Positions 1-10,664 of a stretch of 64,000 nucleotides of DNA are shown piece after piece. This DNA comes from Lishizhenia tianjinensis (GTDB lineage: Bacteria > Bacteroidota > Bacteroidia > Flavobacteriales_D > Crocinitomicaceae). A model generated the notes under the pieces. That model was not told where the DNA came from. It worked only from the letters and a program-made list of their open reading frames with translations, and ran no database searches. Every line of letters begins with the position of its first letter. Within the stretch, counting starts at the first letter, position 1. The position numbers were made by a program, and so were the translations under genes. The stretch covers positions 124,001-188,000 of the forward strand of contig NZ_FPAS01000001.1 in assembly GCF_900116425.1 (NCBI RefSeq). The letters are read 5' to 3'.

Positions 1-1
1 T

Positions 2-103
2 ACGCAAGATGACGGAAAAATAATTGTAATTAATAACGGAGAGTACGGTTGTTTACAGACATCATGCACCAACTTTTGGTGGGTGGATGCTAAAGTAGAT
101 TAG
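2..103 (+). CDS. C-terminal end of an unknown protein (partial)
   Basis: An open frame runs from the left edge of the window to a TAG at 101-103 and encodes 33 residues ending NFWWVDAKVD. The composition (two Cys, NGEYG turn, aromatic-rich end) looks like the end of a secreted or lipoprotein domain, but no family is recognisable from so short a piece. The start lies outside the window. A gap of 67 bases separates it from the next gene on the same strand. Confidence 0.5.
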   Translation, partial: TQDDGKIIVINNGEYGCLQTSCTNFWWVDAKVD

Positions 104-170
104 ATACAAACTAAAAAAAACTAAATTAAAAGATTAAAAACCAATAAAGTCAAACCGAAAATTAAATTCA

Positions 171-2768
171 ATGAAAAAAATAATCGTTTTTCTGTTTTTT
201 TTAAGCCAAGTTTTTATCGGCTTCAATCAAACCTTAACGTTGAAAGACCTTCAGTATGTATGTAGTCAATCTGATTGGACAAAAGTTAATAATTACCTAA
301 CTGACAAAGGGTGGGAGTATTATGAATCCGAAAAAGGCTCTTCCGATCGGTATAACACGATAACATGGACTTTTAATCGAGGTTATGGAGGGAAAGCATC
401 AGGATGGTTTCATCTGTATACATTCGATGGTTTATCTAATAAAGTACTTTATAGTGTATTTAATCAAACTTCGTACAATAAGGTTCATAACCAAATCAAT
501 TCTTTAGGCTATAAACTTAATGAGAGCGTAATAGAGGATAATGAAATTATATCTACGTATAAAAATAGTAGGTATTTTTTAGAATTAACAACTGAGAAAA
601 GAGAAAGTAGTAGTTCTTATTATGACGATGGGGGAGTTACTGCCTATAATTTTGAATTGATTTTAAAGTCTGGAGTTTATGACCCTGATAATGGTAAGAA
701 ATACGAATATTACTGGGATGGAAAAACACTAAAGTTAGAGTATGTCATGAAGGATGGTGAGTTACATGGTCCTTTTAAATCCTATAATTACAACGGTACA
801 TTGAAGAAAACGGGTGTGTTTAAAAACGGTGAGCAGCATGGTTTTTTTGTAGAATATAGGGGCGATGGAAGTAAGGAGTCTGAATATAATGTAAAGGATG
901 GAGTACTTAACGGTAGCATAAAATCGTACTACGAAAATTCTAAATTGGAAAAAGAAGGTTTTATGTTAAATGGTAAGGAACATGGGAACTTTAAAGAATA
1001 TACAGAAGAAGGTGTTCTTGAACTTGTATATAACAAGAAAAACGGAGAATTTGACGGGAGTTTTAAAGTATATTATGAGAATGGTCAATTGAAAAGGATC
1101 GGTGCTTTTGCTAATGGTGTAGAAAGTGGTGAGTTTAAAGAGTATAATGAGGAGGGGAAATTGGAATATCATTATTTCAAAAAGAATGGTGTTAATGAAG
1201 GGAAGTTTTATGAGTATGAGGATGGTAAGTTAATCTTGGAATCTAATTATAAAAATGATCAATTGCATGGGGAGTATGTTAATTATTTTTATAATGATGA
1301 GGGAGAAATAGGGTACAAATTGACAGGTGATTATTTATATGATAAAAAGAATGGATTGTGGAAAGGTGAAATCAAGGAGGGAGAAGAGTTTAGATTGTTG
1401 GAATCTAAAACCTACTATCAAGGTGAGTTAAATGGTCCTTGTATGATACCGAGCAACGATACACTAGTATTTTGTTCTTATGACATGGGTAGCCTACAAG
1501 GGGATTATATGATGTATTTTGATTTGTCGGCATCCCTTTTTAACACTGTGATCCGCACTGATTCTTCAAAACTAGTTTTATTGAAGAAAGGTAAATATCA
1601 ACTTGGTAAAAAGCATGGAATGTGGAGCTACTATTTTAACTCAGGTTCGCTTATGGAAAAAGGTCCTTATAATAAAGGTAAAAAGCATGGGAATTGGAGT
1701 TATTATCATCATGGGATGTCAATACCGGTAGAAAATGGGGAGTTAATGAATTTACCTGGTCAGTTAAGATTAAAAGAACAATACAATAATGGACTACTAA
1801 ATGGTGTTGTTGAACGATTTTCTTACATGAAAAAAATACCTTGTCAAGGAGGTGGAGATTGTTATGAAATTGAAGATGCTTACCTGAAAGAACATTACTT
1901 AAATGGAACACTTCATGGAGATGTTATTTATAAGGATTCAGTAGGTACTGTAATAGAAAAGGGTGAATATTATTATGGTAAAAAACAAGGTGTATGGTTA
2001 GAATCTGCATTGTTAAATAAGGAATATGGGTATGTTTTTAGTGAAGGGGAATATCAATCTGACCTTAAAACAGGTAATTGGGTTACGTACGGTAAGGATA
2101 AAGTGGTTTTGATGGAAATCAATTATGTCAAGGATGAATTTGACGGTGTTACAAGGTTGAATAATTTAAATGGAGACAATTTACAAGAGCTAGAATTTGA
2201 AAATGACAATTTGGTATCTATTAAGGTATATGATGAGTTATCCGGCTTAATGACTCATTCATACAAAATAAATAACTTTTCAAATAAAACAGTTATACAA
2301 ACAATATACCGAGATGGATTGAAAGTTTCTCAACAAGAATATCGATTTACTGGAGATGGTAATCCATTTGAGTTCCATAAAGATTTCGTAAATGGTCTTA
2401 ATAATATTGGTAAATATTATATCCAAGAAATTGGGTTATACGTACTTTATGATACTAAGGAAAGGCTTACTGTTAAGGGGGAGTTGTCATTGGGAACCAA
2501 AATCGGTGATTGGTACTATTATGACTATGAGCAAGATATATACGTGATAAAAACATATAAATACAATAAGGTTACCTTAGAGAAGTATTTTTATATAAAT
2601 AGTTCAGAAGCTTTTACAGGGGATTATTTTATAAAGGAATCTAAAGAAGCAGATCTGATAAAAGTAAAGGTGAAAAACGGGTTAAGAGAAGGAAATACGA
2701 AATTTTACGATAAAGAAGGTAAAGTAATTAAAAAGGACAAGTACAAAACTGGACTTAAGATTAGTTAG
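171..2768 (+). CDS. Secreted MORN/YwqK-repeat protein, 865 aa
   Basis: The protein starts with a clear signal peptide (MKKIIVFLFFLSQ..., cleavage near residue 20). Residues about 20-170 form a non-repeated head. From about residue 180 on there are many degenerate repeats of the type G-x-x-x-G-x-(F/W)-x-x-Y-x-x-x-G-x-(L)-x-x-x-x-x-(Y/F), for example HGPFKSYNYNGTLKKTG and HGNFKEYTEEGVL. These are MORN_2 repeats, the family annotated as YwqK antitoxin-repeat proteins; the antitoxin name comes from one Bacillus case and should not be read as function here. Such repeats form long beta-hairpin sheets, and the signal peptide puts this one in the periplasm or on the surface. No C-terminal type IX sorting domain was seen. 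The gene is visibly AT-richer than purL or icmF. Function unknown. Confidence 0.75.
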   Translation: MKKIIVFLFFLSQVFIGFNQTLTLKDLQYVCSQSDWTKVNNYLTDKGWEYYESEKGSSDRYNTITWTFNRGYGGKASGWFHLYTFDGLSNKVLYSVFNQTSYNKVHNQINSLGYKLNESVIEDNEIISTYKNSRYFLELTTEKRESSSSYYDDGGVTAYNFELILKSGVYDPDNGKKYEYYWDGKTLKLEYVMKDGELHGPFKSYNYNGTLKKTGVFKNGEQHGFFVEYRGDGSKESEYNVKDGVLNGSIKSYYENSKLEKEGFMLNGKEHGNFKEYTEEGVLELVYNKKNGEFDGSFKVYYENGQLKRIGAFANGVESGEFKEYNEEGKLEYHYFKKNGVNEGKFYEYEDGKLILESNYKNDQLHGEYVNYFYNDEGEIGYKLTGDYLYDKKNGLWKGEIKEGEEFRLLESKTYYQGELNGPCMIPSNDTLVFCSYDMGSLQGDYMMYFDLSASLFNTVIRTDSSKLVLLKKGKYQLGKKHGMWSYYFNSGSLMEKGPYNKGKKHGNWSYYHHGMSIPVENGELMNLPGQLRLKEQYNNGLLNGVVERFSYMKKIPCQGGGDCYEIEDAYLKEHYLNGTLHGDVIYKDSVGTVIEKGEYYYGKKQGVWLESALLNKEYGYVFSEGEYQSDLKTGNWVTYGKDKVVLMEINYVKDEFDGVTRLNNLNGDNLQELEFENDNLVSIKVYDELSGLMTHSYKINNFSNKTVIQTIYRDGLKVSQQEYRFTGDGNPFEFHKDFVNGLNNIGKYYIQEIGLYVLYDTKERLTVKGELSLGTKIGDWYYYDYEQDIYVIKTYKYNKVTLEKYFYINSSEAFTGDYFIKESKEADLIKVKVKNGLREGNTKFYDKEGKVIKKDKYKTGLKIS

Positions 2769-2836
2769 GAAATGGTAACGAAGAAAATTGCAAACATCAC
2801 GTATTTTAATTGTTGGTGGGGAGATAATAAGTAGAT

Positions 2837-2986
2837 ATGGACGTACAAGAAATTAAAGAGAAAATTAGGTTACTTGAGCAACAAAAGTCAAAGGCTATAG
2901 AAAAACAAGAGTACGTTTTAGCTACAGATTTAAGAGATGAGATTTTGAAATTCGAAAACCAATTGAAGAATATTTCTAAAAGATAA
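2837..2986 (+). CDS. 49-residue UVR-motif protein, first gene of the McrBC operon
   Basis: This gene starts at ATG 2837 and ends 5 bases before mcrB. The product reads MDVQEIKEKIRLLEQQKSKA and continues with KQEYVLATDLRDEILKFENQ. This matches the UVR motif (UvrB/UvrC contact hairpin; also in ClpC and McsA): hydrophobic-L-E, then a charged helix, then Y/F-x-x-A-x-x-L-R-D-x-I-x-x-L. The whole protein is essentially one such helical hairpin, with no Cys or other domain. The A/G-rich leader (ggtggggagataata) could help initiation. In known proteins the UVR motif mediates protein-protein contact, so I infer a small adaptor for McrB, the nucleotide-excision repair machinery, or itself. It is short enough to be missed by gene callers. 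Confidence 0.6.
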   Translation: MDVQEIKEKIRLLEQQKSKAIEKQEYVLATDLRDEILKFENQLKNISKR

Positions 2987-2991
2987 AACTT

Positions 2992-5748
2992 ATGCCATTC
3001 CTCCCAAATCAGATAACCAAAGATCATATCATACGGGCAGCTAACCGTATTGAAAAGGAAAGTATAGAATTACTTCCTTCAATGCAATGGGATGTTGAAA
3101 TCGATGAGAATCTTTACCCACCAAAAGAAATCATGCGATTTGCGCATGAAGAAATGAATGGAGAACGCATTTGGAATTATTCGGGTGGAGAGCAAACAAA
3201 TGCAATTTTGAAAACACATGGTTTTGAAATAAAAGCTAAAATATTCGCTGATACCAAAATTTTGGAACTGATTGATGCTTATAAATCCCATATCTGTACA
3301 TCTAAATTAGAAAACGAGCGTTACAAATGGGAGTTAGTTCAGCAATTTAAAGGTCGACCTGATGTAAATACTGAAAATTTCAAGGATGAAATTCAAGCTT
3401 TGGATTTTGCTAACCTGGTTTATGCAATGTCTAATTCCGTTCGTAAGTTTTTAGCAGAAGAAAAACCTGAGGAGTTTCGTACTTGTTTTCAACAATTGTT
3501 TGATGATCAAATAGATTTAAGTCAACGTGTAAGGCAGTTTACTGAACAAACCTTAAAGCTTTACAAGTCACTGAACGGATCTCACGGACATCATCAGGAT
3601 GAGCGAACTATTTCAGCATATTTAACCTATCACAACCCAGATAAATACACCTTTTATAAAAATTCATTTTATCAAGCTTTCTGTAAGTTATTGGATGTTA
3701 AAACTGCTTCAAAGAACAAGAAATACGCTCATTATTTAGAATTGTTAAATGAATTTATTTCTGGATATATTCAAAAAGATGAAGAGTTAATTGATCTTGT
3801 AAAATCTCTTCTTCCAAAGTTATATGATGGTAAGAATCATTTATTGTTAGCACAAGATATACTTTATACTATGTTAGAAGGAATAGATAATAGTGAACAT
3901 TTTAATTACCAGAAAGATTTCGAAAAATGGCTGAAGAAGTCAAATGGAAAAGGAAGTAATAAAGTGGCCTCTTATTTAAGGGCGATAGAGTTGTTGCAAG
4001 AGTCTTTAGATTATGTTATTTATGAAACTGATGATCTTGATTTATTAGGTGAGTTGCACGTAGACTTGATAGCCAATCAGAAGAACATCGACGGTCCCTA
4101 TTACAATGCTTCAGCCCCACCTTCTTATGCCAACAACGGGTTTTACTCAGCTTCAATAGGTGCTTATCTAGAATTTCAAAAAGAACGAAATGCTAAAAGT
4201 GAATTGAGAGAACCGAAAACAAATTATTCTATGCCTTATTCCTTAAACGAAATACTTTACGGTCCTCCGGGTACCGGTAAAACATACGAGACAAAATCTA
4301 AAGCCGTTGAAATCATCACGGGTAATAAAATTGAAAAAAGAGATGAGTTAAACGCAGAATACAATAGACTTGTTGAGTCTAAAAACATCTTGTTTTCAAC
4401 TTTTCACCAAAGCATGTCTTACGAGGATTTTGTAGAGGGAATTAAACCTGTAACCGAAGATGGGCAAGTTTCTTACGAAATCCAAGACGGAATTTTTAAA
4501 CAAATATCTTCTCTGGCTAAAGGCGTAGATGGTAGAATCGAAAAGCAAGAAAGTGCTATTGATTTTTCTACGTTAGAATTTTTTAAGATGAGTTTAGGGG
4601 GGAAGAATAGAAAAGATGTTCATGATTGGTGTATAACCAACAATGTTATTGCTTTAGGTTATGGTGGGAATAATGACCTAGATACAATAGGAGCGAGTAA
4701 TTGGAAGGATTACCAAGTTGAATTTCAAGAGAATTTCCCTCAATTAGTAGAAAAATCTAGTTATAATGTAAACTCAACTTACTACTTTAAAAATGTAATA
4801 AAGTTAGGGGATGTTGTATTAGTTTCTAAAGGCAATAGAATCATAGATGCTGTTGGGATTGTAACAGGAAATTACGAATACAGAGAAAGCGAAGAAATTC
4901 CTTATCATCATTTTAGAAAAGTTAGATGGATTGCCACAAATATGAATGCAGACCCTAGTTTATTCGTGGATAAGAACATATCACAACAAACAATCTATCA
5001 GTTCTATAACGATGATATTAAAGTAGACTATTTTGAAAAGAAATTTTCAAAAAGTAAAAAGGAGACGGAGTTCAAAAATCACGTCCTCATCATAGATGAA
5101 ATTAACAGGGGAAATGTTTCTGCAATTTTTGGTGAGTTAATTACGCTCATAGAAGAGGATAAACGTTTGGGAGCCAAGGAGGAAATCAAAGTGACTTTGC
5201 CGTATTCAAAAGAAGAATTTGGTGTTCCGAGTAATTTATACATCATCGGTACCATGAACACAGCCGACCGTAGCGTTGAAGCTTTGGATACAGCCTTAAG
5301 ACGTCGTTTTAGCTTTAAGGAAGTCGGGCCAAAACCTGAATTAATTCGAGAAGTTGGAAAAGCTGAGAATGGGGAGGTAGAGGGTGTAGATTTGGTTCAA
5401 CTCCTTTCGGTAATCAATCAACGTATAGAGGTGTTGTTGGACAAAGATCATTGTATTGGTCATAGTTATTTCCTTAATGTCGCAAGCTTAAGGGAATTGA
5501 AAGCAGCCTTTCAGGACAAGATCATTCCTTTATTGCAAGAGTATTTTTATGGTGATTATGGAAAGATAGGTTTGGTGTTGGGAGAAGGTTTTGTGAAAAA
5601 ATCAATGCTAACCAACCACAATATATTTGCGATTTTCGATGATTATGACGCAAGTATGTATGAGGAGAAAAATGTCTATCATATCATACAGCCTTGTGCT
5701 TTGAAGGATAATGAATTCAAACAAGCTTTGAATCAATTGATAGGATAG
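2992..5748 (+). CDS. mcrB: McrB-type AAA+ GTPase with an EVE-like insertion, 918 aa
   Basis: Motor subunit of a McrBC (type IV-like) restriction system that translocates on modified DNA and drives the McrC nuclease. Visible parts: an N-terminal head (about 1-85) with the YPPKEI...GGEQTN..L...GF pattern seen in heads of ScoMcrA-like and HNH modification-dependent enzymes; a helical middle (about 90-400); Walker A GPPGTGKT at 424-431; Walker B and the McrB signature VLIIDEINRGN around 698-708 (D702); sensor GTMNTADRS near 753-760; and arginine-finger region ALRRRFSF near 768-775. About 130 residues (roughly 520-650) are inserted between Walker A and Walker B. They include GYGGNNDLDTIG and GDVVLVSKGNRIIDAVGIV, which resemble an EVE/PUA-like modified-base reader. 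The protein is far longer than E. coli McrB (459 aa). The stop codon directly abuts the GTG start of mcrC. Confidence 0.85.
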   Translation: MPFLPNQITKDHIIRAANRIEKESIELLPSMQWDVEIDENLYPPKEIMRFAHEEMNGERIWNYSGGEQTNAILKTHGFEIKAKIFADTKILELIDAYKSHICTSKLENERYKWELVQQFKGRPDVNTENFKDEIQALDFANLVYAMSNSVRKFLAEEKPEEFRTCFQQLFDDQIDLSQRVRQFTEQTLKLYKSLNGSHGHHQDERTISAYLTYHNPDKYTFYKNSFYQAFCKLLDVKTASKNKKYAHYLELLNEFISGYIQKDEELIDLVKSLLPKLYDGKNHLLLAQDILYTMLEGIDNSEHFNYQKDFEKWLKKSNGKGSNKVASYLRAIELLQESLDYVIYETDDLDLLGELHVDLIANQKNIDGPYYNASAPPSYANNGFYSASIGAYLEFQKERNAKSELREPKTNYSMPYSLNEILYGPPGTGKTYETKSKAVEIITGNKIEKRDELNAEYNRLVESKNILFSTFHQSMSYEDFVEGIKPVTEDGQVSYEIQDGIFKQISSLAKGVDGRIEKQESAIDFSTLEFFKMSLGGKNRKDVHDWCITNNVIALGYGGNNDLDTIGASNWKDYQVEFQENFPQLVEKSSYNVNSTYYFKNVIKLGDVVLVSKGNRIIDAVGIVTGNYEYRESEEIPYHHFRKVRWIATNMNADPSLFVDKNISQQTIYQFYNDDIKVDYFEKKFSKSKKETEFKNHVLIIDEINRGNVSAIFGELITLIEEDKRLGAKEEIKVTLPYSKEEFGVPSNLYIIGTMNTADRSVEALDTALRRRFSFKEVGPKPELIREVGKAENGEVEGVDLVQLLSVINQRIEVLLDKDHCIGHSYFLNVASLRELKAAFQDKIIPLLQEYFYGDYGKIGLVLGEGFVKKSMLTNHNIFAIFDDYDASMYEEKNVYHIIQPCALKDNEFKQALNQLIG

Positions 5749-6975
5749 GTGGGGATACGTCATAAAATAGCTGTTTTCGAACATGAAACTTTGACCTTAA
5801 AGAATAAGGAGTTCACGCGCCGACATTTGGAGGTTTTACAAACCTTCCATGGAGAGAAGGGTGTTCCTTATTTCTCATTGGTACATAAGGGAATAAAGTT
5901 CAATCAATTTGTAGGTGTTTTACAGATTGGTGAACTCACCTTGGAGGTTTTGCCTAAGGCGGATAAAACAGGGACACAGGATGAATGGAGGTCAAGGTTA
6001 ATTGAAATGCTGCACGCGGTAGGAGAATTCAATGTGGATGCACCTTCTGAGAGTCTATTGACCCTGAAAAATAATTCTGTGTTAGATCTCTATTTTGCCT
6101 TGTTTGTAAAAGAGGTGGAGTATCTCTTACACCAAGGTTTAGTCAAAAAGTATAGAAGAACAGAAGGGAATGTTAAAAGTCTAAAGGGGAGTTTAAACTT
6201 TACTAAACACTTAGATCATAACCTCATTCATAAAGAACGCTTTTACACCGCTCATACCGTGTATGATCAGCAACATGTTTTACACGCGATATTGTTGCAA
6301 GCCCTAATGGTTTTAAAGCAACTCAATACCAATGCTAGCTTAACGAGTAGAATTTCTACACTTCTATTAAACTTTCCAGAACAGGAATATATTAAGATCA
6401 CTGAAAGCACTCTCAAGAGAATTGCTTTAGATAGAAAAACAGAAGGCTACAAAAAAGCCCTTCAAATTGCAGAATTGATACTTCTCAATTATCACCCAGA
6501 CCTAACCAATGGTAGAGACAATGTACTGGCCTTGATGTTTGATATGAACAAACTGTGGGAGAAGTATGTATATGTGGGCTTAAAAAAGAACCTCAAAGGG
6601 ATAAGATCTATTTCCATGCAACACTCCAAAAAGTTCTGGCAACAAGAAAAGGGAAATGCTTCCACTATGCGACCTGATATTGTCATCAACAAGGGAGAAC
6701 CTGATTGTATTGTTTTAGATACAAAATGGAAAAATCTCAATGGATCAGTGCCAAGTTCAGAAGACTTACGACAAATGTATGTCTACGCAAAATTCTACCA
6801 AACCCAAAAGGTAGCCTTAGTATACCCCGGAATAGAAAATGCTGAGTTTACCGGTAACTACTATCACGAACACACCAAAGAACTTGGCGATCAATCTTGT
6901 TCTATCATTACCCTTCGCCCAGAAAAGAAATTGAAATCATGGATGCAAGATTTGAGTTTGTTTTTTAATGTTTAA
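5749..6975 (+). CDS. mcrC: McrC-type PD-(D/E)xK endonuclease subunit, 408 aa
   Basis: Nuclease partner of McrB. The C-terminal half carries the McrC catalytic signature: RPDIVI with D310, then IVLDTKWK with D324 and K326, the D...DxK arrangement of the PD-(D/E)xK fold. The preceding helical region (about 90-290, with RTEGNVKSLKGSLNF and MLHAVGEF) is typical of McrBC 5-methylcytosine restriction subunits. The length of 408 residues is normal for the family (about 350-430). The start is a GTG immediately after the mcrB stop, so translation is probably coupled. A hairpin with a T-run follows at 7022. Confidence 0.9.
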   Translation: MGIRHKIAVFEHETLTLKNKEFTRRHLEVLQTFHGEKGVPYFSLVHKGIKFNQFVGVLQIGELTLEVLPKADKTGTQDEWRSRLIEMLHAVGEFNVDAPSESLLTLKNNSVLDLYFALFVKEVEYLLHQGLVKKYRRTEGNVKSLKGSLNFTKHLDHNLIHKERFYTAHTVYDQQHVLHAILLQALMVLKQLNTNASLTSRISTLLLNFPEQEYIKITESTLKRIALDRKTEGYKKALQIAELILLNYHPDLTNGRDNVLALMFDMNKLWEKYVYVGLKKNLKGIRSISMQHSKKFWQQEKGNASTMRPDIVINKGEPDCIVLDTKWKNLNGSVPSSEDLRQMYVYAKFYQTQKVALVYPGIENAEFTGNYYHEHTKELGDQSCSIITLRPEKKLKSWMQDLSLFFNV

Positions 6976-7021
6976 GCTATAAATATAGGTCTTCAAGACA
7001 GCTCGTACCTCACCCCTCAGG

Positions 7022-7043
7022 CCTCAGTACCTTGAGGTTTTTT
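7022..7043 (+). terminator. Terminator after mcrC
   Basis: CCTCA (7022-7026) pairs with TGAGG (7033-7037), with a possible extra G-U pair, and is followed by six T. It sits 47 bases after the mcrC stop. Confidence 0.55.
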
Positions 7044-7072
7044 AAATATTAATTTTTGAATTAAGAATTAAC

Positions 7073-7215
7073 GGCCGACCTGAGGTTCCACAAAGTGGAA
7101 GTCTCGAAGGCCAACACCTCTTTAAATCTTTAAATGTCGAACTTCAGTTCGATATTAAATTCTTAAATTCCCTTCTAAAAGTCTAACCGTCTAAATGTCT
7201 AAACATCTAAAATCT
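7073..7215. repeat. Intergenic repeat region with hairpins (copy 1)
   Basis: This 250-base spacer holds several small structures and no gene. GGCC at 7073 and GGCC at 7109-7112 flank TTCCAC-aaa-GTGGAA (7086-7100). After TTTAAATCTTTAAAT comes TCGAAC-ttca-GTTCGA (7137-7152), then TTAAATTCTTAAAT and several xTCTAAA words. The same plan (AAAT words, small hairpin, CTTAAATC words) returns near 9,990 and 15,025. Confidence 0.55.
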
Positions 7216-7216
7216 C

Positions 7217-7224
7217 TATCTTAG
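7217..7224 (+). promoter_or_regulatory. Candidate -7 box (TATCTTAG) of the deacetylase operon
   Basis: TATCTTAG matches the Bacteroidota -7 consensus TAnnTTTG in 7 of 8 positions (all six fixed bases but one). The ATG of the deacetylase is only 5 bases further on, so the transcript would be nearly leaderless. No convincing TTTG -33 box was seen. Confidence 0.35.
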
Positions 7225-7229
7225 TCGGC

Positions 7230-8225
7230 ATGAACATTTTTCTGACCCTCGATTATGAACTTTTCTTCGGCAACCCCACGGGGAGCGTGGAGAAGTGTAT
7301 CTTGGAACCTACCGAGCGTTTGCTTAATATTTCGCGCAAATATGGGGTGGGGATGACCTACTTTGTAGATATTGGGTACCTCTTGGCAATGGAAAGAGAA
7401 ATGATACATTTTCCGCAATTGCAGCACGACTATAATTTGGTCGTAGATCAATTGCACAAAATCATTGCAGAAGGCAGCGATGTTCAATTGCACATTCACC
7501 CGCATTGGGAAGATTGTAACTATACGCCAGAAGGTTGGAATATGATTACGCATTTGCACTATAAATTGGATGATTTCCCCGAAGAAGAAATCTATCCTTT
7601 GGTGAAGCGTTACAAGGAAAAGTTAGAAGAGATTATCGGAAGAAAAGTGAATAGTTTTAGAGCAGGAGGTTGGTGTTTGCAACCTTTTTCTAAAGTGGAA
7701 AAAGCCTTTCAAGAACTCGGAATAAAATACGATACCACCGTTTTTCAAGGTGGAAAGTTTTCCTCTGAGCACTATGCCTTTGATTTTACCTCAGCACCCA
7801 ACAAGGGGCGTTATCAATTTCAAAGTGTATTGACCCATGAAAATCCTGAGGGTTATTTTACGGAAATTCCTATAGGGGGTATGAAATATCATCCTTTGTT
7901 TTACTGGCAATTGTATGGGTGGGGGAGAGTTAGACCTTCGCGACATAAAATGCTGGGAGATGGTAATTTTATTGCCCAACCCGGACGTAAACAAAAACAT
8001 TTGACAAAATCTTCTTGGAACCATATTAGTATGGATGGATACTTCGCCTCTAAACTCAAAAGTGCTACACGCAAATTTGCAAAGTCGGGAAGAACGGATT
8101 TAGTGGTGATCGGTCATCCAAAAAGCATGACTGAATTTTCATTTGAGCGTTTAGAACGTTATATTCAGGCCATGCAAAAGAAACACGAGTTTTTAACCTT
8201 TAAAGATTTGCCCCATGCTGATTAG
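7230..8225 (+). CDS. NodB-like polysaccharide deacetylase family protein, 331 aa
   Basis: The N-terminus MNIFLTLDYELFFG carries the first aspartate of the NodB fold (D8), and residues 88-93 (HIHPHW) supply the metal-binding histidines of the H-x-x-x-H-like motif. FRAGGWC near residue 145 takes the place of the usual R-P-P motif, and GHPKSM near 295 supplies the last conserved His. These enzymes remove N- or O-acetyl groups from surface polysaccharide or peptidoglycan sugars. There is no signal peptide, so it would act in the cytoplasm or on lipid-linked intermediates. It overlaps the next gene by 11 bases, and the third gene overlaps the second, so the three form one unit. The substrate cannot be told. 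Confidence 0.7.
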   Translation: MNIFLTLDYELFFGNPTGSVEKCILEPTERLLNISRKYGVGMTYFVDIGYLLAMEREMIHFPQLQHDYNLVVDQLHKIIAEGSDVQLHIHPHWEDCNYTPEGWNMITHLHYKLDDFPEEEIYPLVKRYKEKLEEIIGRKVNSFRAGGWCLQPFSKVEKAFQELGIKYDTTVFQGGKFSSEHYAFDFTSAPNKGRYQFQSVLTHENPEGYFTEIPIGGMKYHPLFYWQLYGWGRVRPSRHKMLGDGNFIAQPGRKQKHLTKSSWNHISMDGYFASKLKSATRKFAKSGRTDLVVIGHPKSMTEFSFERLERYIQAMQKKHEFLTFKDLPHAD

Positions 8226-9099
8226 TGCAGAGCGTCTGGATAAGGCGGCTTGGGATGATTTTGTAGCGCAACACGGAGCAACTATTTTTTCTACTTCTAC
8301 TTATTTAGATGCTACCGCAGAAAACTGGTTTGTCTATTGGAAAAAGGACGAAAACTGGGGAGTAGCCTTGCCCTATACCGTGCGTTTGGGGATCAAAACC
8401 TTGTACCAACCCTTCTTTAGTCGTTACCAAGAGGTAATCGGAGATGTTCCTGCTGGGAGGTCGGAACTCGAAGAGGTAATAAAACAGCATTTCAAGCGTT
8501 CTATGGTCAACTTCAGACGAGAAATTCCGGAGTGGATTCCTTCTGAAATTTATGTGTACCAAAGTTATGACGAGCAAGCCAAAATTTCTACAAATGCCAA
8601 ACGTCAATTCAAGAAATTTGAGAAGTCGGGTTATAGCATAGAAAAGGAAGCGTTTACACCAGAACACCTCGAGTTTATCACCAATACTTTGGCTGAGAAG
8701 TTAGATTTTTACAAGGGTGATGAGGTAGAAATCATTGACCGCTTGGCCAAGAACTTAAGTGGAACCCAACAGTTGGTGAGTCATGTTGTACGCATTGCCG
8801 GAGAAATTGCAGCGTGTATACTTTTAATGGATTTCGGGCAGCGCCGTATTTACTTAAAGGGAGCAAGTTCTGAAGATTTGAAAAAATTAGGAGCCATGTA
8901 CGCTTTGCTCAACAATGCTAGAGAAGAAGCTGTGGCCCAACATAAAATATTTGATTTTGGTGGATCGCGCGTAGATAGCGTTAAATCCTTCAATTATAAA
9001 TTAGGTGGAGTAGACCAAAAGTATTTTGCTTATCACTATGATAATTCTCCTTTTTGGTTTAAACTCGCACAAAGTTTAAAAGCATGGAAGAAAAAGTAG
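8215..9099 (+). CDS. FemAB/GNAT-fold transferase, 294 aa
   Basis: The protein resembles FemAB-like (BioF2-like) acyl or aminoacyl transferases. The opening W-x-x-F-V-x-x-H-x-x-x-x-I-F-x-x (residues 13-28) is the usual start of this fold. The end has FDFGGSRVDSVKSFNYKLGG, the F-G-G-S-x(n)-F-x-x-K-x-G pattern of the second GNAT half. No signal peptide is present. Family members transfer amino acids to peptidoglycan precursors or acyl groups in exopolysaccharide loci. It is overlapped at the front (11 bases) by the deacetylase and at the end (16 bases) by an SDR, so a shared surface-glycan pathway is likely. Donor and acceptor are unknown. Confidence 0.6.
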   Translation: MLISAERLDKAAWDDFVAQHGATIFSTSTYLDATAENWFVYWKKDENWGVALPYTVRLGIKTLYQPFFSRYQEVIGDVPAGRSELEEVIKQHFKRSMVNFRREIPEWIPSEIYVYQSYDEQAKISTNAKRQFKKFEKSGYSIEKEAFTPEHLEFITNTLAEKLDFYKGDEVEIIDRLAKNLSGTQQLVSHVVRIAGEIAACILLMDFGQRRIYLKGASSEDLKKLGAMYALLNNAREEAVAQHKIFDFGGSRVDSVKSFNYKLGGVDQKYFAYHYDNSPFWFKLAQSLKAWKKK

Positions 9100-9797
9100 T
9101 ATTGATTACAGGTGCCTCAGGTGCATTAGGAACGGCCTTAACGGAACATTTCAGAGCCCAAAGTCACATTAAATTAGTGCTCCACTTCAATGCGAATCCT
9201 ATTTTAAACATAGACAACCAAAACGTTTTACTTACGCAGGCAGACCTTACTCAAGAACATGAGGTGAAAGGGATGATGGCGAAAATAGAGGAGAAGTTTG
9301 GTCGTTTAGATATGCTCATCAACAATGCAGGGATCTCTAAAAGTGCCATTTCTTGGAAAATGTCTAGCGAAGATTTCGATGCTACCTTAAATGTAAACCT
9401 CAAAGCACCTTTCTTAACCAGTAAATACGCCATTCCACTAATGCGTAAGCACAACTGGGGACGTATCGTAAACATCAGTAGCGTAGTGGCGCAAACAGGT
9501 TTTATTGGTACCACAGCCTATGCAGCGTCCAAAGCCGGACTCATCGGTATGACCAAAACCATGAGTAAAGAACTAGCTGCCTTCAACATCACTGTAAACG
9601 CTTTGGCTTTAGGTTATTTCAACAGAGGAATGATAGATGATGTGCCCGAAGAGTTGCGTTCTGAAATCCTAAAAAATGTACCTATGAATCAATTAGGAGA
9701 ACCAGCAACCATCGCCAAAACTTTGGAATTACTCCTCTCAGAAGAAGGAAGCTTCATCACCGGTCAAACCCTCAACCTCAATGGAGGACTATACTAA
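9084..9797 (+). CDS. Short-chain dehydrogenase/reductase, FabG-like, 237 aa
   Basis: Classical SDR with all key motifs: cofactor loop TGASGALG (residues 8-15), NNAG near 81, catalytic Ser in NISSV near 132, and Tyr/Lys in YAASK near 150, with a C-terminal ITGQTLNLNGG. Length and motifs fit 3-oxoacyl-ACP or acetoacetyl-CoA reductases of the FabG/PhaB type, using NAD(P)H. Because it overlaps the FemAB-like gene by 16 bases, it probably serves that envelope pathway, not general fatty acid synthesis. The substrate is not deducible. Confidence 0.75.
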   Translation: MEEKVVLITGASGALGTALTEHFRAQSHIKLVLHFNANPILNIDNQNVLLTQADLTQEHEVKGMMAKIEEKFGRLDMLINNAGISKSAISWKMSSEDFDATLNVNLKAPFLTSKYAIPLMRKHNWGRIVNISSVVAQTGFIGTTAYAASKAGLIGMTKTMSKELAAFNITVNALALGYFNRGMIDDVPEELRSEILKNVPMNQLGEPATIAKTLELLLSEEGSFITGQTLNLNGGLY

Positions 9798-10121
9798 TGC
9801 AGTATGGAGTGTGAGTATGGAGTATGAGCGAATCTAAAATTAGATGTATCGAAATATAGGTTGTCGAGCAAAATATAAGTTATCGAGCGGAGAGCCGTGG
9901 TGAGCGGAGCCGAACTATCGAGATACCGATAATTCAATGACTAAATTTCCAAATCATCAAATTATTGAATCCTTAAATCATTAAATAGTCAACCGCAGGT
10001 TGATGCTTAAATCTATAAATTCACTCAGCGTACTTTGTGTAATCCTCTGCGAACTTTGTGGTTCAGCCACGTCCTATCGGAATCATCAAATCCTTCAAAT
10101 CATCAAATTATTGAATTTGAC
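9798..10121. repeat. Gene-free 324-base spacer filled with repeats (copy 2)
   Basis: Between convergent genes. It contains, in order: a GAGTATGGAGTGTGAGTA tract (9800-9827); a TATCGAGCGGAG/GAGCGGAGCCGAAC segment (about 9870-9925); CAAATCAT/CAAATTATTGAAT words (about 9950-9975); TCAACC-gca-GGTTGA followed by CTTAAATC (about 9990-10015); CTTTGTG...CTCTGCGAACTTTGTGGTT (about 10030-10065), a word type often seen between Bacteroidota genes; and a second CAAATC array ending TTGAATT (about 10083-10120). No open frame of note and no clear terminator were found. Confidence 0.6.
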
Positions 10122-10664
10122 CTACCCCAGCTTCGATTGCGTAACCACCTCAGCCAATAACTCCAATCTTTCTTGATAATGCGGGTTGATATCCCCTTCA
10201 GTTGTATACAAATCAGCATATTGCATAGGAACACTCAAAGGAGCTGTCCAAGCACGCAAGGCTTTGGCAACTGTATCCATGGCATTGATACCATTGATGG
10301 CTTGTACACCACCAGCCCAACACGCAAAACCGATTACTTTACCTTCCAAGTATACTTGATCTTCAGTTTTACCGTATTCCAACCAGTCCAAACAGTTTTT
10401 CATCGCACCTGTCATACCGCCATGGTACAAAGGAGTAATCCAAATATGTATGTCTGTGGCTCTAAACAATTTGTTCATCGCCTCAACAGGAGCAGGCAAA
10501 GTTTCAGGGTTTAGTTTGAAAAGAGGGATGTTAGAATCGGTGATGTTAAAGATCTCCGTCTCACATGCCAAAGTATCAAATTTGTTCTTTAAAAGTGTGC
10601 TAATCTTTGCAGATGTAGACTGAACAACTGGCTCTATAGCTCCGTTAAATATCAATACTTTCAT
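10122..10664 (-). CDS. NADPH-dependent FMN reductase family flavoprotein, 180 aa
   Basis: Flavodoxin-like FMN reductase/azoreductase family: MKVLIFNGA start, phosphate-binding loop region near residues 10-20 (VQSTSAKIS), and the family motif ITPLYHGGMTGAMKNCLDWL around residues 75-100. It reduces flavins or quinone-like substrates with NAD(P)H. I chose ATG 10664, because it makes an ATGA overlap with the stop of the upstream DUF2480 gene and follows a purine-rich AAAAGGAA; ATG 10676 (MEKE extension) is the alternative. Position downstream of superoxide dismutase suggests a part in oxidative-stress defence. Confidence 0.75.
   Translation of the reverse strand: MKVLIFNGAIEPVVQSTSAKISTLLKNKFDTLACETEIFNITDSNIPLFKLNPETLPAPVEAMNKLFRATDIHIWITPLYHGGMTGAMKNCLDWLEYGKTEDQVYLEGKVIGFACWAGGVQAINGINAMDTVAKALRAWTAPLSVPMQYADLYTTEGDINPHYQERLELLAEVVTQSKLG

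Follow-up and report, generated by a model that had tools for sequence, protein, structure and literature searches.

How cells keep McrBC and GmrSD-type modification-dependent nucleases harmless to themselves is, to our knowledge, largely open. In Lishizhenia tianjinensis, a gene of 49 codons that encodes almost only a UVR motif is found at the head of an McrBC operon, and this raises the question of what such a motif does beside a restriction enzyme. With so small a gene at the operon head, whose product resembles the regulatory part of a protease motor, the stability and toxicity of the nuclease become directly testable, and the case illustrates that very small genes of defence operons can be found when sequence and context are considered together. 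The gene was noticed in a stretch of 64,000 nucleotides, here called the window, and the initial annotation suggested a possible link to UvrABC repair or, alternatively, a role as structural adaptor.

A 49-codon UVR gene at the head of an McrBC operon

The genes of the operon, and the locus that precedes the window, are as follows.

2837..2986, + strand: stand-alone UVR micro-protein, 49 aa (ORF; PF02151, 33 bits)
2992..5748, + strand: mcrB-like AAA+ gene, 918 aa (AAA_5, 54.5 bits)
5749..6975, + strand: mcrC nuclease gene, 408 aa, GTG start (PF10117, 196.5 bits)
G000:C2:115892-123493 (L278 7893-15494), directly ahead of the window: HsdM, HsdS, a HigB-like gene, an HTH/Peptidase_M78 gene and HsdR of a type I R-M locus, followed by a GIY-YIG gene

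The UVR ORF beside mcrB is a real gene. In the ORF list of the window it starts with ATG at 2837 and ends with TAA at 2984-2986, and five bases (2987-2991) separate it from the ATG of mcrB at 2992. Residues 7-42 span the entire 36-position PF02151 model (E 4.6e-8, 33 bits versus a gathering cut-off of 21.5), a clear match that bears out the UVR assignment of the initial annotation. With a UVR profile that had no free UVR in its building, the frame scored 43.7 bits compared to 3.1 bits for the runner-up among 924 window frames (stop-to-stop, at least 30 codons) and a maximum of 11.8 bits in ten order-1 simulated windows, and the match is thus not due to chance. As had been suggested, a real ORF this small is easily overlooked in annotation.

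In the host genome of 3.56 Mb, five places score above the Pfam cut-off for UVR: a 199-aa protein that we read as DUF151 type, ClpC, UvrB, the window ORF and UvrC. UvrB and UvrC are encoded by separate genes elsewhere, and the window ORF, with 49 aa and its stop at 2984, is not attached to a UvrB helicase or a UvrC nuclease. AlphaFold2 predicted one continuous helix (residues 3-48, pLDDT 96.6) rather than a hairpin for the 49-aa sequence alone, a model that neither supports nor excludes a hairpin. There was no Rfam match within window 2500-3200, and promoter-like sites were at chance level only, in a scan with models that do not cover promoters of Bacteroidota.

Downstream, mcrC follows directly 3´ of mcrB without a gap. 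McrB residues 1-300 form the N-terminal and helical part common to its relatives. We take residues 424-431 to be Walker A and residues about 697-703 to be Walker B, and the translation contains GTMNTADRS. The combination of an AAA_5 McrB carrying an NTADRS-type motif with a PF10117 McrC identifies the pair, as judged from sequence, as a McrBC type IV restriction system. A PDC-S02-like domain is found between the Walker A and B parts (residues about 540-650; window 4609-4941). The predicted McrB structure is poor at residues 297-414 and 512-691 and was left out of the analysis. Many McrB relatives have, in our reading, an EVE-like domain ahead of the AAA+ part in place of the PDC-S02-like insert.

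With the type I R-M locus and the GIY-YIG gene just before the window, the UVR-McrBC operon belongs to a defence island. Upstream of the UVR gene, on the same strand, window 171-2768 encodes an 865-aa protein with MORN_2 repeats and a weak likeness to the LIC20035 adhesin (41 bits, cut-off 250). The G+C content is about 0.32 in window 1-7000 and 0.40 in 7000-10500, climbing towards and past the mcrC end, and the operon region may be an acquired stretch.

Absence of the UVR gene from related McrB loci

One explanation for a small gene in this position is that its product, by forming dimers or by packing against McrB/McrC or another nuclease, stabilises the restriction complex without involving ClpC. 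The tight spacing to mcrB (5 bases) and, at loci described below, to GmrSD (1) and PDC-S26 (4) genes suggests shared translation and is in line with such a structural accessory. The survey of McrB relatives speaks against it. McrB relatives were looked for in 99 relatives, 395 class genomes and collections of genomic and viral contigs. The conserved N-terminal part of McrB as query gave 43 genomic loci and one viral locus, the latter being the only relative found in six scans of viral contigs. A UVR ORF was found at the inclusion threshold in none of these 44 loci (some of which begin near the gene at contig ends, and a few of which have incomplete upstream regions) with the window peptide, the UVR profile or the free-UVR profile, and the genes directly upstream of mcrB vary from locus to locus. 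The first UVR profile, built from 9 pattern-found segments that were UvrB- or DUF151-like by eye, was biased, giving the window copy only 11.7 bits, and was supplemented with phmmer and the free-UVR profile for these scans. A whole-genome search similarly gave no UVR ORF in 15 McrB loci with an upstream stretch or gene start in view, some of which probably come from the same genomes as the 44 loci since the L009 and L100 matches are identical. A 30-codon frame before mcrB in L096 (10.2 bits, E 0.53) was taken for chance.

Because a UVR ORF is absent from the 44 loci with related McrB, the peptide is, on this evidence, not a conserved McrBC subunit. Of the two refuting outcomes named in the initial annotation, lack of a UVR HMM match and lack of conservation of the frame, the first is not seen and the second is, in the McrB relatives found. 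The same absence, together with the occurrence of relatives beside unrelated nucleases, makes an obligate structural role in McrBC unlikely, and with neighbours of free UVRs drawn from unrelated families we consider a structural accessory of any kind rather unlikely as well.

Stand-alone UVR genes at other restriction and defence loci

The 49-aa query was run over 345 class genomes, and the relatives it found served in turn to query two families and two genera. This gave six other stand-alone UVR ORFs of 50-58 aa from six genomes of the same class (Bacteroidota in our reading); small frames were counted among the matches listed, so that there are at least six, and weaker ones may have been missed.

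L167: 55 aa UVR, with a GmrSD gene (PF03235, PF07510; PADLOC HEC-06) one base upstream
L242: 52 aa UVR, four bases after a PD-(D/E)XK nuclease gene (PADLOC group PDC-S26); WYL gene about 1 kb on
L164: 52 aa UVR, then a WYL gene, an N6-methylase/HATPase protein, a 388-aa unknown and HsdM
L168: 58 aa UVR, after a WYL gene
L272: 50-52 aa UVR, then HsdM, YhcG, HsdS, a 185-aa gene, McrB and McrC (operon 411-8030)
L241: 54 aa UVR, divergent from a CAP12-type TIR gene

By raw count, five of the six loci carry a restriction, nuclease or WYL gene on the strand of the UVR, and at the remaining one the UVR lies beside the divergent TIR gene. Relatives of the window micro-protein hence recur beside unrelated restriction and defence genes, and the pattern of stand-alone ClpC-like coils at restriction loci is wider than the one first described. 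The initial annotation knew of no other McrBC operon headed by a free UVR. The window case is real, but a second exists in L272, where the contig starts at the UVR start codon and McrC is cut; L271, L272 and L273 are counted as one locus because all three G1063 contigs end at the UVR ORF.

Among the matches listed were eight non-window frames of less than 130 aa, three of which were kept (L164, L167 and L168); L241, L242 and L271/L272/L273 were kept from the searches with relatives as queries. Small UVR frames in L165 and L166 are cut at contig ends and were dropped, as were those in L169, L170 and L243, which looked spurious owing to an internal stop or an unrelated protein. The L167 UVR scores 19.1 in Pfam, under the cut-off of 21.5, and the L242 UVR, found through the sequence of a relative, has no Pfam UVR match at E 0.01. 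For the GmrSD of L167, two close homologues were opened, on a Myroides plasmid (80% identical) and a Hymenobacter plasmid (67%), and both are without a UVR ORF, which argues that the UVR gene is an occasional accessory. Searches of plasmids and phages with the UVR peptides mostly matched annotated Clp ATPases; the other matches were one Rad52-annotated gene, three unannotated plasmid sequences and a hypothetical phage protein aligned to half of the query, and the L168 peptide had no match in these collections.

The sporadic distribution would fit with a UVR gene fragment that came to lie before mcrB by chance and has no role. Such fragments do occur, e.g. the 51-codon UVR frame in L279 (4028-4183), a DUF151-type decay fragment about 0.9 kb after a DUF151-type gene and separated from it by an opposite-strand gene. 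The free UVRs look different in that all seven ORFs have 49-58 codons and similar starts, and no parent UVR gene is found in the surrounding ORF lists. Copies that are 87% and 65% identical still have open frames, and free UVRs recur beside restriction genes, all of which makes a mere bystander unlikely. The L164 and L271 copies differ in 5 synonymous and 7 non-synonymous codons out of 52 (dN 0.058, dS 0.18), and between L164 and L241 dN is 0.29 with dS not computable and third positions most changed; these changes are few and point weakly to purifying selection on the free UVR frames.

The WYL genes invite another explanation, in which the peptide acts on WYL-type regulators or on operon expression and not on proteolysis. 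They adjoin the UVR ORF in L164 and L168 and are about 1 kb away in L242, but no WYL gene is seen among the Pfam-scanned neighbours, a subset of all neighbours, in the window, L272, L167 and L241. We regard this as quite improbable.

Further genes at these loci include two in L164 (together 3367-7153, - strand): one encodes an 878-aa protein with N6-methylase and HATPase domains and a specificity-type part under the Pfam cut-off, and its 388-aa neighbour has no Pfam match and a start that we read as receiver-domain-like. Upstream genes at two UVR loci encode 222 aa with a weak uracil-DNA-glycosylase match (L242 5451-6119, E 0.009) and 230 aa with no Pfam match (L273 6421-7113).

Relationship to ClpC, UvrB, UvrC and DUF151

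UVR motifs are found in proteins of different function, and the class to which the free UVRs belong bears on their role. A profile of the six free UVRs matched 16 distinct sequences at E <= 1 among all PDB chains, and 13 of these are ClpC. The best matches (1.9e-9, 2.1e-9 and 1.5e-8) are chains with the ClpC middle (M) domain, e.g. S. aureus ClpC 412-458 (PDB 6EM8, 6EM9, 6EMW). Of the other three, one is another Clp ATPase, one is labelled NDP-hexose 4-ketoreductase and one is CJUN; each has E >0.004, and no UvrB or UvrC was found at E <= 1. PDB 6EMW is a fitted ClpC-MecA model according to passages of the structure's paper, and its chain C was for this reason ruled out as a structure of the isolated middle domain. 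A four-member profile was run against 395 phylum genomes, and among the matches listed all but the window's own are in frames of 551-975 aa, which by size, rather than by annotation of each, are ClpC or part of ClpC. In the host genome, a five-member profile made without the window copy matched ClpC (2.0e-11), the window UVR (5.1e-4) and the DUF151-type protein (0.02), with no match to UvrB or UvrC up to E 10. The window copy alone also has a ClpC middle-domain chain as its first match in PDB, but this is weak (E 0.018).

The free UVRs have a coil length similar to that of the ClpC middle domain and retain equivalents of Gln434, Phe/Tyr436, Arg443 and mostly Asp444. In the window these are:

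2906..2908, + strand: Gln24 codon, equivalent of ClpC Q434
2912..2914, + strand: Tyr26 codon, corresponding to ClpC F436 (contacts head to head and with MecA; alignment numbering, contacts from passages of PMC5699869)
2933..2938, + strand: Arg33-Asp34 codons, corresponding to ClpC R443-D444 (contacts head to head; alignment numbering, contacts from the same passages of PMC5699869)

At the 443 and 444 positions, the free UVRs have Arg in 6/6 and Asp in 5/6. The Tyr/Arg/Asp tip does not in itself single out ClpC, because these residues recur in UVR motifs at large. Gln at the 434 position is present in 79 of 81 ClpC segments and in all six free UVRs, but in none of 21 DUF151 segments, in none of the 8 UvrB segments, out of 22, that the pattern could read, and not in the one UvrC segment, with classes assigned by our own motif patterns. 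In comparisons of class models, the five non-window copies all score 32-60 bits on the ClpC model and <=17.7 on the UvrB or DUF151 models; the comparison is tilted towards ClpC because the ClpC set was partly gathered by likeness to free UVRs, and it comprises no UvrC model (10 unclassed segments and the single UvrC segment being left out). The window copy behaves differently, with 29.5 bits on the UvrB model, 23.7 on DUF151 and 20.2 on ClpC, and its weak NCBIfam matches are headed by UvrB (E 0.047), followed by McsA (0.12).

In a tree of 71 segments (22/81 ClpC, 21/22 UvrB and 21/21 DUF151 segments were included), none of the seven free UVRs falls into the starred clades of UvrB (100/82) and DUF151 (100/93), and all group with ClpC. 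The window copy joins ClpC and the remaining free UVRs at 98/74, a support that is not starred, on a long branch (1.6) estimated from 42 columns for which a long-branch warning was issued. The tree does not unite the free UVRs in a single clade, and they may therefore have been detached more than once; the starred branches force only one change. As a group, the stand-alone UVRs are, on these sequence comparisons, ClpC-middle-domain-like rather than UvrB- or DUF151-like. For the window copy, the leave-one-out profile, the tree and Gln24 point to ClpC and the class models to UvrB, and it is probably, not surely, ClpC-like, its class being less sure than that of the group.

These results bear on the repair link of the initial annotation, by which the free UVR would bind UvrB or UvrC and so direct nucleotide excision repair to sites of cut or modified DNA near McrBC. 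The notion of UVR as a contact module is sound, and the UVRs of UvrB and UvrC are described as known partners in excerpts of PMC8889267. The highest class score and the first NCBIfam match of the window copy favour this explanation, and both its Gln24 and its place in the tree run counter to it. As a group, the free UVRs match the middle domain of ClpC; neither UvrB nor UvrC is hit by their profiles in PDB (E 1) or in the host genome (E 10), and the five other copies are all far from the UvrB model. The window protein shares the Pfam family PF02151 with UvrB and UvrC but is without a helicase or nuclease part. We thus find a repair link unsupported and improbable.

A possible link to ClpCP

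The likeness to ClpC hints at a link between DNA restriction and protein turnover. In S. aureus ClpC, according to passages of PMC5699869, the inactive resting state has two half-spirals kept head to head by F436, R443 and D444; mutation of any one of these gives a ClpC that is active with no adaptor present, and F436A together with ClpP is toxic. The same passages note a tyrosine in ClpE at the place of F436, and ClpE hexamers are joined via their middle domains in excerpts of PMC13125188. In mycobacterial ClpC1, residues of the Uvr motif matter for control by ClpS (passages of PMC6274998).

McsA is a UVR-domain partner of ClpC and, like the chloroplast UVR partners, a larger protein with other parts. 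Unlike these, the window protein is almost only UVR, and unlike the ClpC middle domain it is encoded by a separate 49-aa gene at a restriction locus and not by an insert in an AAA+ ring. The parallel with chloroplasts is that UVR there also occurs on proteins other than ClpC: in the excerpts of PMC8889267, EXE1/2, UVR2-4 and CLPF were found with CLPC1, such UVR proteins being trapped by CLPC1 and CLPF being an adaptor that has a UVR.

We tentatively read the window gene as one of a sporadic set of free UVR coiled coils that contact ClpC and tie restriction enzymes to turnover by ClpCP, which we hold to be possible rather than probable. Restriction enzymes are known Clp targets, and the UVR genes are for this reason proposed as the ClpC contact pieces of restriction operons. 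The free UVR would bind ClpC through its tip residues Tyr26, Arg33 and Asp34 in the way that ClpC middle domains pair, and a free coil that pairs with ClpC's own middle domain would recruit or wake ClpC. Made beside a freshly assembled restriction complex, it could bring the complex to ClpCP or wake resting ClpC nearby, and restriction activity would be turned over or held in check. The effect might go in either direction: the nuclease might be turned over, or ClpC might be released during infection. Against contact with ClpC stand the ranking of the window copy alone on the class models (UvrB > DUF151 > ClpC) and its long branch, the weak Pfam standing of the L167 and L242 relatives, and the sporadic association, close GmrSD homologues and 44 McrB loci being without a UVR ORF. 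The broader proposal, that detached ClpC middle domains in restriction operons of Bacteroidota couple restriction to ClpCP, is doubtful at present. If true, there would be dedicated, gene-linked adaptors of restriction alleviation, or triggers that unleash ClpC during infection.

The suggested outcome is akin to the alleviation of type I restriction in E. coli, where ClpXP acts on EcoKI (PMC4231737 and PMC11109961). There a Clp protease controls a restriction enzyme, as is proposed here for ClpC; the protease of E. coli is ClpX-based, and no dedicated micro-protein is mentioned in the opening of either abstract. A literature search, with most subscription journals outside its scope, revealed nothing that pairs a UVR motif with McrBC, and searches on UVR with ClpC or restriction-modification and on McrBC with Clp protease, covering few subscription journals, revealed nothing alike among the matches listed. 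In an EVE survey, UVR occurs only as UvrD, and the words UVR, UvrB and ClpC are absent from the main text of the survey of CoCoNuT systems (PMC11090510). As far as excerpts of that survey go, CoCoNuT systems likewise bring McrBC together with coiled coils; unlike in those systems, the coiled coil of the window is a separate micro-protein.
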